Positions 29,796 through 51,289 of a stretch of DNA of 64,000 bases are shown here, one piece after another. The notes under the pieces are model-generated. The model was not told the origin of the DNA. It ran no database searches and saw only the letters and a program-made list of their open reading frames with translations. Numbering within the stretch: position 1 is the stretch's first letter; the number at the start of each line of letters is the position of its first letter. The DNA comes from Sphingobium subterraneum (lineage in GTDB: Bacteria; Pseudomonadota; Alphaproteobacteria; Sphingomonadales; Sphingomonadaceae). The position numbers and the translations under genes were made by a program. The stretch spans positions 248,001 through 312,000 of the forward strand of contig NZ_JACIJP010000002.1 of the NCBI RefSeq assembly GCF_014199435.1, in the 5' to 3' direction.

Positions 29796-29938
29796 GCCGG
29801 ATCGACATTCAGCCCTGATGGCCTGCAAATGGCAACTTTCCGTGCTTCCGGTGCTCACGTACTGTAAGTACGCTGCGCTCCGGGTCACGAAAACTTGCCA
29901 TTTTCGACACATCATCATCTGAATGTCGATCCGGCCTA
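29793..29938. repeat. Family C long palindromic element, copy C1
   Basis: This 146-base element is bounded by a perfect 20-bp inverted repeat, TAGGCCGGATCGACATTCAG at the left and its complement at the right. Inside, AAATGGCAA...CGTGCTTCCGG pairs imperfectly with CTCCGGGTCACG...TTGCCATTT around a small CACGTACTGTAAGTACG centre. Its left end provides the stop codon of the serine hydrolase and its right end abuts the stop of the converging glycosyltransferase. The core recurs at 51139-51277. Confidence 0.85.
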
Positions 29939-48393: not shown

Positions 48394-48999
48394 ATGATCG
48401 AGGTGGCGGGGGTGAAGGTGCGGCGGCGCACGGCGATGACGATCCTGATACTGATCGCGGGCGCGGCGGCGCTGCTGCTCGCGATGGGACGGCCGGCGAT
48501 CTGCACCTGCGGCACGGTGAAGCTGTGGGAGGGCGCGGTCAATTCCGCCGGGAACAGCCAGCATATCGCCGACTGGTACAGCTTCAGCCATATCATCCAC
48601 GGCTTTCTATTCTACGCGGGGACGTGGTGGCTGCTCGGGCGCAAGCGGCGGGATGGCACGCCGCCGCTGCTGCGCCGGGACGCACGGCTGGCCGTGGCGG
48701 TGGCGATCGAGGCGGGGTGGGAGCTGCTGGAAAACTCGCCGATCATCATCGACCGCTACCGCACCGCCACGATCGCGCTCGGCTATACCGGCGATTCGGT
48801 GCTCAACAGCCTGAGCGACATCGGCATGATGATGGCGGGCTTCCTGTTCGCCGCGCGCATGCCGGTACGGGTGACGGTGCTGGTCGCAGTGGGGTTCGAG
48901 CTGCTAACGCTCTGGACGATCCGCGACAACCTGACGCTCAATGTGCTGATGCTGACCTGGCCGGTGGAGGCGGTGAAGCTATGGCAGGCTGGGGGGTAG
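48394..48999 (+). CDS. DUF2585-family membrane protein
   Basis: This 201-residue polytopic protein has about five transmembrane helices and the conserved DUF2585 stretches [57 protein letters not shown] and [13 protein letters not shown]. The many His, Glu and Asp residues at helix ends suggest a metal or catalytic site, but no activity is established. The last 103 bases are duplicated at 49440-49542. Confidence 0.9.
48897..48999 (+). repeat. Parent copy of a 103-base duplication (3' end of the DUF2585 gene)
   Basis: This stretch, from CGAGCTGCTAACGCTCTGGA to the TAG stop, reappears at 49440-49542 with 8 substitutions and no gaps (about 92% identity). Similarity stops at the stop codon and just before the first base. 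Confidence 0.92.
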
Positions 49000-49080
49000 G
49001 GAACTTTCGGATGCTGTAGTAACAACCCAAGTCGCAAATTTTGAGTCGCCAGCTAGGTCCTTCTGTTCTAGAATTTCGCT

Positions 49081-49368
49081 ATGCATCATACAGGCGCTGA
49101 TGGAGAATATTACAGGAGACAACGGGCAAAACTTGACCCTGATGATGGAAATCGTTGGTATCTTCTTATCAAAGAATTACGTGCCGAGCACGGCTGCACC
49201 CTTGACGAAGCCCACCGCATTGCTCTCGCGGACCCGACATGGCGGCGCTGGTTGGAAAGCCGGATCAATCACCACCCAAAATGCCGTAAGTCCGCGTTAT
49301 GGCATATACGCAATTATGGCGACGCATCGTTAATTCGCCAGGTGGGAAATAGGCTTAAAATCCGCTAA
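49081..49368 (+). CDS. Small basic protein of unknown function (cargo module A)
   Basis: This 95-residue product is basic and mostly helical (EYYRRQRAKLDPDDGNRWYLLIKELRAE and WRRWLESRINHHPKCRKSALWHIRNYGD are the richest parts; two cysteines). Codon use is more A/T-rich than in neighbours. No strong ribosome binding site precedes the ATG. It lies between the DUF2585 gene and a chimera of flanking-gene remnants. I recognise no family; a small nucleic-acid-binding protein is possible but unproven. Confidence 0.55.
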   Translation: MHHTGADGEYYRRQRAKLDPDDGNRWYLLIKELRAEHGCTLDEAHRIALADPTWRRWLESRINHHPKCRKSALWHIRNYGDASLIRQVGNRLKIR

Positions 49369-49377
49369 ACCAAACAG

Positions 49378-49437
49378 CCGTCCGCTACCCTGCGCGACCG
49401 AGTTCAGTGGCTCCGCCTCAACGTGGTTGTGCTCGAC
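49378..49437 (-). pseudogene. Remnant of the 3' end of the small gene now at 50149-50475
   Basis: Read on the minus strand these bases encode AEPLNSVAQG followed by a short tail and stop, closely matching ADPLNSVAQG at the C-terminus of the intact 108-residue gene. DNA similarity is clear over roughly 40 bases (shared ACCGAGTTCAG). Nothing of the rest of the gene is present. It abuts the DUF2585 remnant. Confidence 0.7.
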
Positions 49438-49439
49438 AT

Positions 49440-49542
49440 CGAGCTGCTAACGCTCTGGACGATCCGCGACAATTTGTCGCTCAATGTGCTGATGCTGACC
49501 TGGCCGGTTGAGGCGGTGCGGGTGTGGCAGGCTGGGGGGTAG
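49440..49542 (+). pseudogene. Duplicated 3' end of the DUF2585 gene
   Basis: This 103-base fragment encodes the last 34 residues of the DUF2585 protein ([21 protein letters not shown] and onward) up to the TAG stop, with three amino acid changes. No start or upstream part is present. The level of divergence suggests origin from another strain rather than a very recent local copy. Confidence 0.85.
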
Positions 49543-49569
49543 GAGGTGGTTCTGAACCGACTGACACCA

Positions 49570-49669
49570 CCGTTCGTGCTGAGTAGCCATTGAGCCTGTC
49601 GAAATGGCATATCGAAGCACCCTTCGATACGGGCCTTCGCCAAGCTCAGTCCCTACTCAGGGCGAACGG
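49570..49669 (-). repeat. Family A palindromic repeat, copy A6 (inverted)
   Basis: A 100-base copy in the opposite orientation to A1, ending CCCTACTCAGGGCGAACGG on the plus strand, with the centre GTATCGAAGGGTGCTTCGATAT on the minus strand. It supplies the last codons (LPFALSRD) and stop of the minus-strand gene at 49646. Confidence 0.85.
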
Positions 49670-50065
49670 AAGTTGGGATGGCAGGGGACAGGAAATCCGC
49701 ACCGCCGCCAGGATTCTTTTTGAATAGTTCGGTGATAGGCCAGCGATCTGGAAAGAGCCGCCTGTAATGGGTTCGTGGACGCGCACGTTCATGATTACCT
49801 GACCGCCGAGCCGTAACGCGAGATCTTTACCAACATGCTTGGCCGTTTCGATTGCGACAACCTGACGCCCTGCGTCTGTCAGCAACAGGGACAAAGCATC
49901 ACCAGACGACGAGACTTTCGCCACTTTGCCCCTACAGAGAACAACGTCTCCTAATTGCAAATATTGATTGGCGAAGAATAGCTTAGGCTCCGCCAACAGT
50001 ACTGACGGGAAAGTCAACATCGCTATAAAGCACAAAGGTACCGCTCGGAATAATGTTCGTCTCAT
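49646..50065 (-). CDS. Exported protein resembling the SecDF P1-head domain (cargo module B)
   Basis: This 139-residue product has a signal peptide (about residues 1-26, ending LLAE) and a small domain whose pattern VLLTDAGRQVV...TAKHVGKDLALRLGGQV...VHEPITGGSFQIAGLS looks like the P1-head subdomain of the translocase subunit SecD, without its membrane channel. Two cysteines are present (VVLCRG and RISCPL). Codon use is A/T-richer than flanks. The start at 50065 is the first ATG; a GTG at 50071 is possible. The final eight codons come from repeat A6. Similarity is by eye and moderate. Confidence 0.6.
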   Translation of the reverse strand: MRRTLFRAVPLCFIAMLTFPSVLLAEPKLFFANQYLQLGDVVLCRGKVAKVSSSGDALSLLLTDAGRQVVAIETAKHVGKDLALRLGGQVIMNVRVHEPITGGSFQIAGLSPNYSKRILAAVRISCPLPSQLPFALSRD

Positions 50066-50148
50066 AAACACAATGTGTCATTAAATTCCGATGCTCGCAA
50101 ATAGTGAGGTCCTAACGGCCATACATGACCAGACAGCACATCAAAACA

Positions 50149-50475
50149 TTACAACCGCGTCCCGCCCTGCGCCACCGAGTTCAGCGGGTCCGCGTCGAAG
50201 GTCGTGGTACTCGGCTGCACCGCCGCTTCCGTAACGGCCGGGCCGACGGGCTTGGCGTTCAGGGCGGCGAGGGTTTCGCGGCGTTCGTCGCGTTCTTTCT
50301 TGCGCTGCCACAGCTTGTGGGCGACCCACACGCCGCCGATGGTGGCTGCGCCCAGCGGCGAGCGGGTGATGACGCGGGATGCGATGACGCCGACGGCGGC
50401 ACCGAGCACGCCCGAGCGGCCGACTTCATCCGCGACGCGCGCGCCCACAAAGCCCGAAATGAATTTACCCAGCAT
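50149..50475 (-). CDS. Small conserved membrane-associated protein of unknown function
   Basis: The 108-residue protein has a hydrophobic, Gly/Ala-rich first half (MLGKFISGFVGARVADEVGRSGVLGAAVGVIASRVITRSPLGAATIGGVWVAHKLW) that may hold two short helices, then a charged segment KKERDERRETL and a polar tail ending DADPLNSVAQGG. GGGAG lies 10 bases before the ATG at 50475. A remnant of its 3' end is at 49378. Function unknown. Confidence 0.7.
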   Translation of the reverse strand: MLGKFISGFVGARVADEVGRSGVLGAAVGVIASRVITRSPLGAATIGGVWVAHKLWQRKKERDERRETLAALNAKPVGPAVTEAAVQPSTTTFDADPLNSVAQGGTRL

Positions 50476-50559
50476 GTTGACGGCGCTCCCTGAAGACTGT
50501 GTGTCCTCAACCCCTTTGCGCCCGCGCCGGTTCCTCATGCTGTGGCTTAAACCCCGCCG

Positions 50560-51060
50560 CTATTTCTTTTTGCCGAAATCGACGGTGACGACGTTCGATC
50601 CGTCCTCGGCCGCCGTGGCGGAGCCGCCCTGCGAGCTGCCGACGCCGTCATTCTCGGCCGCTTCGTGGGGTTCCGGGCCATCGTCGTTCGCTTCGACCTG
50701 GAATTGCAGGGCGAAGTTGACCGCCGGATCGACGAAGGCGGTGATCGCGGCATAGGGAATGATGAGCTGCGCCGGGATCTGGTTAAAGGTCAGGCTGACG
50801 CGAAAGAGATCGTCCTCCACCTTCAGGTCCCAGAACTTGTTCTGGAGCACGACGGTCATTTCATCGGGGAAGCGCTCGGCCAGGTGCGTCGGGATGGAGA
50901 CACCGGGCGCGCGGGTCTTGAAGGTAATGTAGAAATGATGCTCGCCGGGGAGCAGGCCGTTATGCTCGATCTGCCCCAGCACGCGGCCGACCACGGCCCG
51001 CAGCGCTTCCTGCACGATTTCATCATAGGGAATCAGGCTGTCGGGCAAATTTTCGCTCAT
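50560..51060 (-). CDS. sspB: ClpXP adaptor SspB (alphaproteobacterial type)
   Basis: This 166-residue adaptor delivers ssrA-tagged and other substrates to ClpXP. The substrate-binding domain (residues 1-115; [47 protein letters not shown] and [23 protein letters not shown]) is followed by an acidic flexible linker and the ClpX-binding C-terminus [10 protein letters not shown]. The length and tail match the alpha-type SspB. Monocistronic. Confidence 0.92.
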
Positions 51061-51099: not shown

Positions 51100-51289
51100 C
51101 CCGGGCGGATCATATTGCCCTTCGGTCGTCTTCGACTCCAGCCCTGATGGCCTGCAAATGGCGATCTTTCGCGCTTCCGGTGCTCACGTACCTTAAGCAC
51201 GCTGCGCTCCGGGTCACGAAAGACCAGCATTTTGCCCTACGGTCGTCTGCGACTCCGTCACATCATCATCTGAATGTGACCCGCCCGGG
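51100..51289. repeat. Family C long palindromic element, copy C2
   Basis: The 190-base element has inverted ends CCCGGGCGGATCAT and GTGACCCGCCCGGG. Its core (about 51139-51277) shares with C1 the blocks AGCCCTGATGGCCTGCAAAT, TTCCGGTGCTCACGTA, GCGCTCCGGGTCACGAAA and ACATCATCATCTGAATGT. Between core and ends it carries two near-identical direct repeats containing GGTCGTCTTCGACTCC and GGTCGTCTGCGACTCC. It lies between divergent genes sspB and hisB, so it is not simply a terminator. Confidence 0.8.

Follow-up and report, generated by a model that had tools for sequence, protein, structure and literature searches.

Two stacked small genes and a scar of both flanking gene ends in Sphingobium subterraneum suggest a botched merge of two versions of one locus

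A close published counterpart of the locus described here comes from conjugation in Escherichia coli. According to the accessible part of the report (PMC3240628), linear DNA loses an end, re-joins as a circle and recombines by a single crossover, which leaves partial duplications. Within one class of recombinants, 56 of 60 clones gave the junction product, and the 14 that were sequenced had duplications of 109-950 bp; the other four clones apparently arose by homology-facilitated illegitimate recombination. The latter process, in which one end of the incoming DNA is homologous and the other is joined illegitimately, is recorded for Acinetobacter, Pseudomonas stutzeri, and Streptococcus pneumoniae in the available sections of PMC3240628 and PMC5361080. 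A mechanism akin to it has been proposed, in those same sections of PMC5361080, for the type VI effector-immunity arrays of Vibrio cholerae, where modules pile up by successive insertion between conserved surroundings, at times with the displaced 3' end of an older gene left behind. Small variable segments are the subject of a further paper (PMC2884548), on which we do not draw as evidence. The literature matches listed for natural transformation in Sphingomonas, or for cargo exchange between core genes, included nothing on point.

We describe a structure with similarities to these systems in the genome of Sphingobium subterraneum, within a stretch of 64,000 nucleotides that we call the window. 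Two small cargo modules, A and B, lie in tandem between a DUF2585 gene and a converging gene (C129), and between the modules there is a scar made of the 3' ends of both flanking genes (Table 1). As in the E. coli system, part of a homologous locus is duplicated, but the published case, as presented in the accessible text, concerns a laboratory plasmid with one cloned homology, whereas ours is a natural locus with two flanks and two cargo genes. The resemblance to homology-facilitated illegitimate recombination lies in the combination of one homologous and one illegitimate join. However, that process usually deletes a similar amount of recipient DNA (PMC3240628, same portion), whereas here the cargo and the flanks were apparently kept. 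The V. cholerae modules are effector-immunity pairs set in arrays, as the consulted sections of PMC5361080 describe them, unlike the two unrelated, uncharacterised small genes and the single scar of the window. The scar is a well-preserved example of a known process and not a new system; both candidate routes to it are already published. In this locus, two parental versions can be inferred from one genome by considering which gene ends are present, how they are ordered, and how the codons of one remnant have changed, and this yields a simple prediction about sister strains. Two foreign-looking small genes are stacked in one gap, and neither the list of open reading frames (ORFs) nor Pfam revealed an integrase or transposase gene between the flanks. 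Scars of this kind are, to our knowledge, seldom readable in natural genomes.

Table 1. Features between and including the two convergent flanking genes, in window coordinates.
Feature	Position	Strand	Remarks
DUF2585 gene, left flank	48394..48999	+	PF10755, E 2.1e-82; NCBIfam NF002099 above cut-off
Module A, DNA with a 95-aa ORF (49081-49368)	49000..49372	+	GC 0.50; GC3 of the ORF 0.495
Left half of the scar, remnant of the C129 3' end	49373..49435	-	1-nt deletion, ragged end, stop lost
Right half of the scar, second DUF2585 3' end with stop	49439..49542	+	92% identical
Module B, palindromic repeat and SecDF P1-head-like ORF	49543..50148	.	GC 0.52
Dispersed palindromic repeat copy	49570..49673	.	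matches elsewhere in the same genome
ORF of module B, 141 aa (GTG) or 139 aa (ATG at 50065)	49646..50071	-	PF22599, E 5.3e-7
C129, intact converging gene, right flank	50149..50538	-	longest ORF, 129 aa

In the window, the convergent genes DUF2585 and C129 enclose 1149 bases. The original prediction had already recognised a two-module interval at this place, and every element that it named was found within a few bases of where it had been put. It described the converging gene as one of 108 residues: the gene is there, but its longest ORF is the one in Table 1, and the 108-residue form corresponds to an internal start. DUF2585 has been placed among the families of the lipocone superfamily, according to the portion of that literature that we could consult. 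C129 adjoins SspB (window positions 50538-50560) in the window and in the genomes G024, G050, and G065; the distance is 1.4-3.1 kb in the other 19 of the 23 genomes with both genes in the stretch fetched.

The duplications of both gene ends are real. The last 103-104 bases of DUF2585 recur in the right half of the scar: positions 48896-49000 and 49439-49543 are 92% identical over 105 nt (blastn: 92.3% over 104 nt, E 3.8e-40). We counted eight differences across the last 102 nt of the gene, in good agreement with the eight changes in 103 bases first reported, and the first 32 of these 102 positions are identical. The best local alignment of the C129 end covers the left half, with a one-base deletion and additional indels towards its ragged 3' end. 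It scores 30; the highest score among 2000 shuffles was 16, and the highest when 1448 actual 85-base segments of the window were compared was 19.4. For this tail blastn gives 81.6% identity over 49 nt (E 1.7e-7). Given these E-values and controls, both tails are above chance, and the chimera of two 3' ends proposed between the modules is confirmed with slightly corrected coordinates. The tail of C129 precedes that of DUF2585, each in the orientation of its parent gene. Searching up to 3 kb downstream of DUF2585 in 139 sequences, we found a second tail of the gene in one, the window itself.

The two halves of the scar meet with three bases (49436-49438) that belong to neither, and no long word shared by C129 and DUF2585 is visible at the joint. 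The locus has the partial direct duplication of flanking homologous sequence that both candidate routes would leave. It also has a novel joint, between sequences that are not adjacent in this order in the relatives, and without long homology; short shared words at the joint would have to be judged against the parental sequences. One may ask if such a joint was created by the assembly of a mixture of strains in the sequenced sample, since the genome is available as 34 contigs. We regard this as very improbable indeed: the three unassigned bases and the lack of a long shared word are atypical of a mis-join, the tract is inside a 787-kb contig of an assembly with an estimated contamination of 0.25%, and the C129 remnant has a frameshift of its own.

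The substitutions in the C129 remnant have the pattern of coding sequence. Sixteen codons can be aligned, in a block that includes the one-base deletion and stops short of the ragged final codons, where indels break the frame. All nine substitutions between C129 and the remnant in this block are at third codon positions. If the three positions were equal, this would have a probability of 5e-5, or of 1.5e-4 when the last, alignment-dependent substitution is set aside (8 of 8), for a test that was chosen only after the alignment had been inspected. Such a pattern arises between diverging working genes and not in a decaying dead copy. With substitutions confined to third positions, the remnant probably came from a C129 gene that had evolved separately while working. 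The copy of the DUF2585 tail has kept frame and stop, with three amino-acid changes among the eight base changes where 5.3-5.6 are expected (p 0.04-0.08, according to which mutation model is used). We tried to polarise the eight differences using the majority or plurality state of 58 genomes of the genus, and the outcome was mixed: the copy agrees with the relatives at four sites, the intact gene at two, and neither at two. As regards a possible arm of donor origin, the C129 remnant resembles a separately evolved gene, and the eight DUF2585 sites point both ways.

The two halves also differ in how far they have diverged. Third positions have changed in 9 of the 16 codons of the C129 half and in 3 of the 33 codons of the DUF2585 half (Fisher p 7e-4), and the contrast persists when restricted to the last 23 codons of DUF2585 (p 0.006). 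It is weaker when all substitutions are counted (9/47 against 8/99, p 0.09). The event was therefore not simple: a single exchange between equally diverged parents would yield similar values in the two halves. The difference could be explained by gene conversion acting on the two tails of DUF2585, by a previous recombination in which one cargo arrived together with a foreign C129, or by a crossover within DUF2585, whose last 102 bases begin with the 32 identical positions noted above.

These patterns bear on the idea that the junction of DUF2585 and C129 was first duplicated in tandem in an empty slot, and that A and B were inserted later, one on each side. Short tandem duplications are common, and one would leave the same joint, with the C129 tail followed by the DUF2585 tail. 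Free decay of the duplicated C129 tail is however unlikely to yield substitutions at third positions only, with the probabilities given above, and the halves would be of one age and yet differ at third positions (p 7e-4, or 0.09 for all substitutions). Both insertions would moreover have needed to spare the dead tails and to fall at gene ends. Direct reading of the sequence places each module a few bases from the ends of the flanking genes, with neither interrupting a tail, which is what one expects of modules that entered between flanking genes still in working order. We find a duplication in the empty slot quite unlikely.

The coding type of divergence in C129 favours instead the merging of two versions of the slot, with one homologous and one illegitimate join. 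We think it fairly likely, with some reserve, that the interval results from a botched exchange between a DUF2585-A-C129 and a DUF2585-B-C129 version of the same locus. Each version would first have gained one foreign AT-rich small gene between the convergent genes. DNA of one version, from a related strain, would then have entered a cell carrying the other, recombined homologously at one place, and been joined illegitimately at another end, with one side of this join lying within C129 and the opposite side within DUF2585. The product would have one intact copy of each flanking gene and both cargoes in tandem, with a scar of broken tails between them. Several observations weigh against such a merge: the scar retains only short homology to the flanks (63 and 104 bases), none of the slots in the relatives contained just A or just B, and the halves differ at third positions.

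If a single event merged two parental versions, its route would have been either a circle closed by end joining and integrated by one crossover, or a linear donor using homology-facilitated illegitimate recombination; both would fit the sequence. The circle had been put forward from the order of the tails, and this order is indeed the expected product of a circle and a single crossover, comparable to the E. coli outcome in the accessible part of PMC3240628. As re-joined DNA followed by a single crossover is reported there, the circle is a respectable model. The genome encodes Ku, which is compatible with end joining (1 of the 14 control genomes was also positive). It also encodes ComEC, but this says little on DNA uptake because the same search was positive in 10 of the 14 controls. 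A gene transfer agent was considered as the vector and rejected, its marker GTA_TIM being absent from the genome (one of the 14 controls, Caulobacter, was positive).

A variant with a full-length intermediate would yield the same joint. A larger circle or duplication would leave two complete DUF2585-cargo-C129 sets, and one later deletion would make the scar by removing the front of the inner C129, the intervening DNA, and the front of the inner DUF2585. It would permit the inner C129 to diverge as a coding gene, matching the third-position pattern. There is also a precedent in S. pneumoniae, where transformation produces merodiploids with duplications of about 100-900 kb, according to the available part of PMC3784515. 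This variant needs two steps, and with third positions changed in only 3 of 33 codons, the DUF2585 copy has diverged too little for a long coexistence of the two sets, unless gene conversion homogenised it. We consider it unlikely, if worth keeping in mind, and retain the direct merge of two versions as the preferred reading.

Modules A and B both look acquired, to judge from their AT-rich composition and low GC3. Their GC contents are 0.50 (A) and 0.52 (B), compared with 0.65 for the window, and GC3 is 0.50 in the ORF of A and 0.57 in that of B, versus 0.82-0.91 in three neighbouring genes. The protein of module A had homologues in 6 other genomes of the genus (94 searched) and in 14 others of the family (397 searched), two of the latter being short, weak matches; elsewhere in the family the homologues are 31-60% identical. 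It is a patchily distributed small protein with varied neighbours (loci L120-L131 and L164-L169). We found nothing significant for it in Pfam, PHROGs, NCBIfam, or PADLOC, and the best match of its profile to solved structures had an E-value of 0.33. Folding of the single sequence predicts an all-helical protein (mean pLDDT 77.5), whose best match in the PDB has an E-value of 1.8.

The ORF of module B matches the P1 head of SecDF weakly (PF22599, E 5.3e-7, 30 bits for a cut-off of 27) and, read by eye, has a hydrophobic N-terminus that is a putative signal peptide; its predicted fold (pLDDT 37) is too poor for use. The element previously noted in this module as repeat A6 belongs to a dispersed palindromic repeat of the same genome. 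Outside the query region there are at least 34 matches, each of which overlaps positions 49570-49673 of the query; some are partial, others are a single copy detected in both orientations, and the count comes from the 40 candidates scored out of 113. The interval had no DNA match among plasmid records. In the same records the protein of A has one weak match, on a Rhizobium plasmid, and that of B has none; the protein of B had no match in viral contigs either. Among the 63 loci with homologues of A or B that we scanned for the flanking genes, none had DUF2585 or C129, and one had a weak GMK match (L144, 31%, E 2e-4).

We then compared the gap between DUF2585 and C129 across the genus. DUF2585 was matched in 60 of the 94 genomes, including that of S. 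subterraneum, and we examined 58 relatives after leaving out this genome and G049, whose DUF2585 copy (G049:C1:175839-176312) has three in-frame stops. C129 was found near DUF2585 in 48 of the 58, and was not found in the stretch fetched for the other 10, two of which ended 1.5 kb downstream. The stops of the two genes overlap or are at most 18 bp apart in 43 of these 48 relatives; the gap is of 122 bases in one and of about 1.2 kb in four. The slot is thus usually empty, and A and B are additions to it. In the tree of the 63 stretches holding both GMK and DUF2585, the sisters of the window (G024, G050, and G065; support 0.96) have gaps of 7, 122, and 18 bp. The four gaps of about 1.2 kb (G008, G013, G017, and G089) form one clade (support 0.98), and their inserts are 82-91% alike. 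The one insert of the four that we scanned, in G008, consists of an acyltransferase-3 gene (PF01757; L219:2049-3116). Outside the genus, in Sphingomonas colocasiae, a cation-efflux gene (L061:5592-6572) lies between DUF2585 and a C129 homologue. DNA similar to this insert also occurs in L068 and L075, where the interval is longer.

The original prediction expected strains with module A only or module B only between the two genes. There were none among 138 other slot sequences, in which the proteins of both modules were absent at E 1e-3; these comprise the 58 genomes of the genus and 80 named loci (L039-L118), partly from the same genomes, so that the 139 sequences including the window are not independent. 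Neither of the two parental arrangements was found in the 138, which come from collections with one genome per species, none of them this close to the window. The same prediction had considered that all relatives might share the order of A, chimera, and B; this order was found in the window only.

The last part of that prediction was an exchange slot that works without an integrase. Different lineages do have different cargo in the gap: A and B in the window, the acyltransferase gene in the clade of four, and the cation-efflux gene in L061. The turnover is however not above that of the neighbouring gap. In a comparison with one control gap and approximate gene starts, two relatives out of 55, belonging to two lineages, have more than 300 bp between GMK and DUF2585, and the DUF2585-C129 gap is enlarged in this way in 4 of 48, from one clade. 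The control gap is enlarged about as often, and we find no sign of a slot dedicated to exchange. A standing slot in which Sphingobium strains would swap small foreign genes through conserved flanks without an integrase, with a failed swap in the window, seems to us decidedly improbable.

The window holds other repeated sequences outside this interval. An 83-base direct repeat, 90% identical, occurs at positions 29810-29892 and 51139-51221, 21 kb apart, and the second copy is flanked on either side by a 29-base repeat (51111 and 51228).
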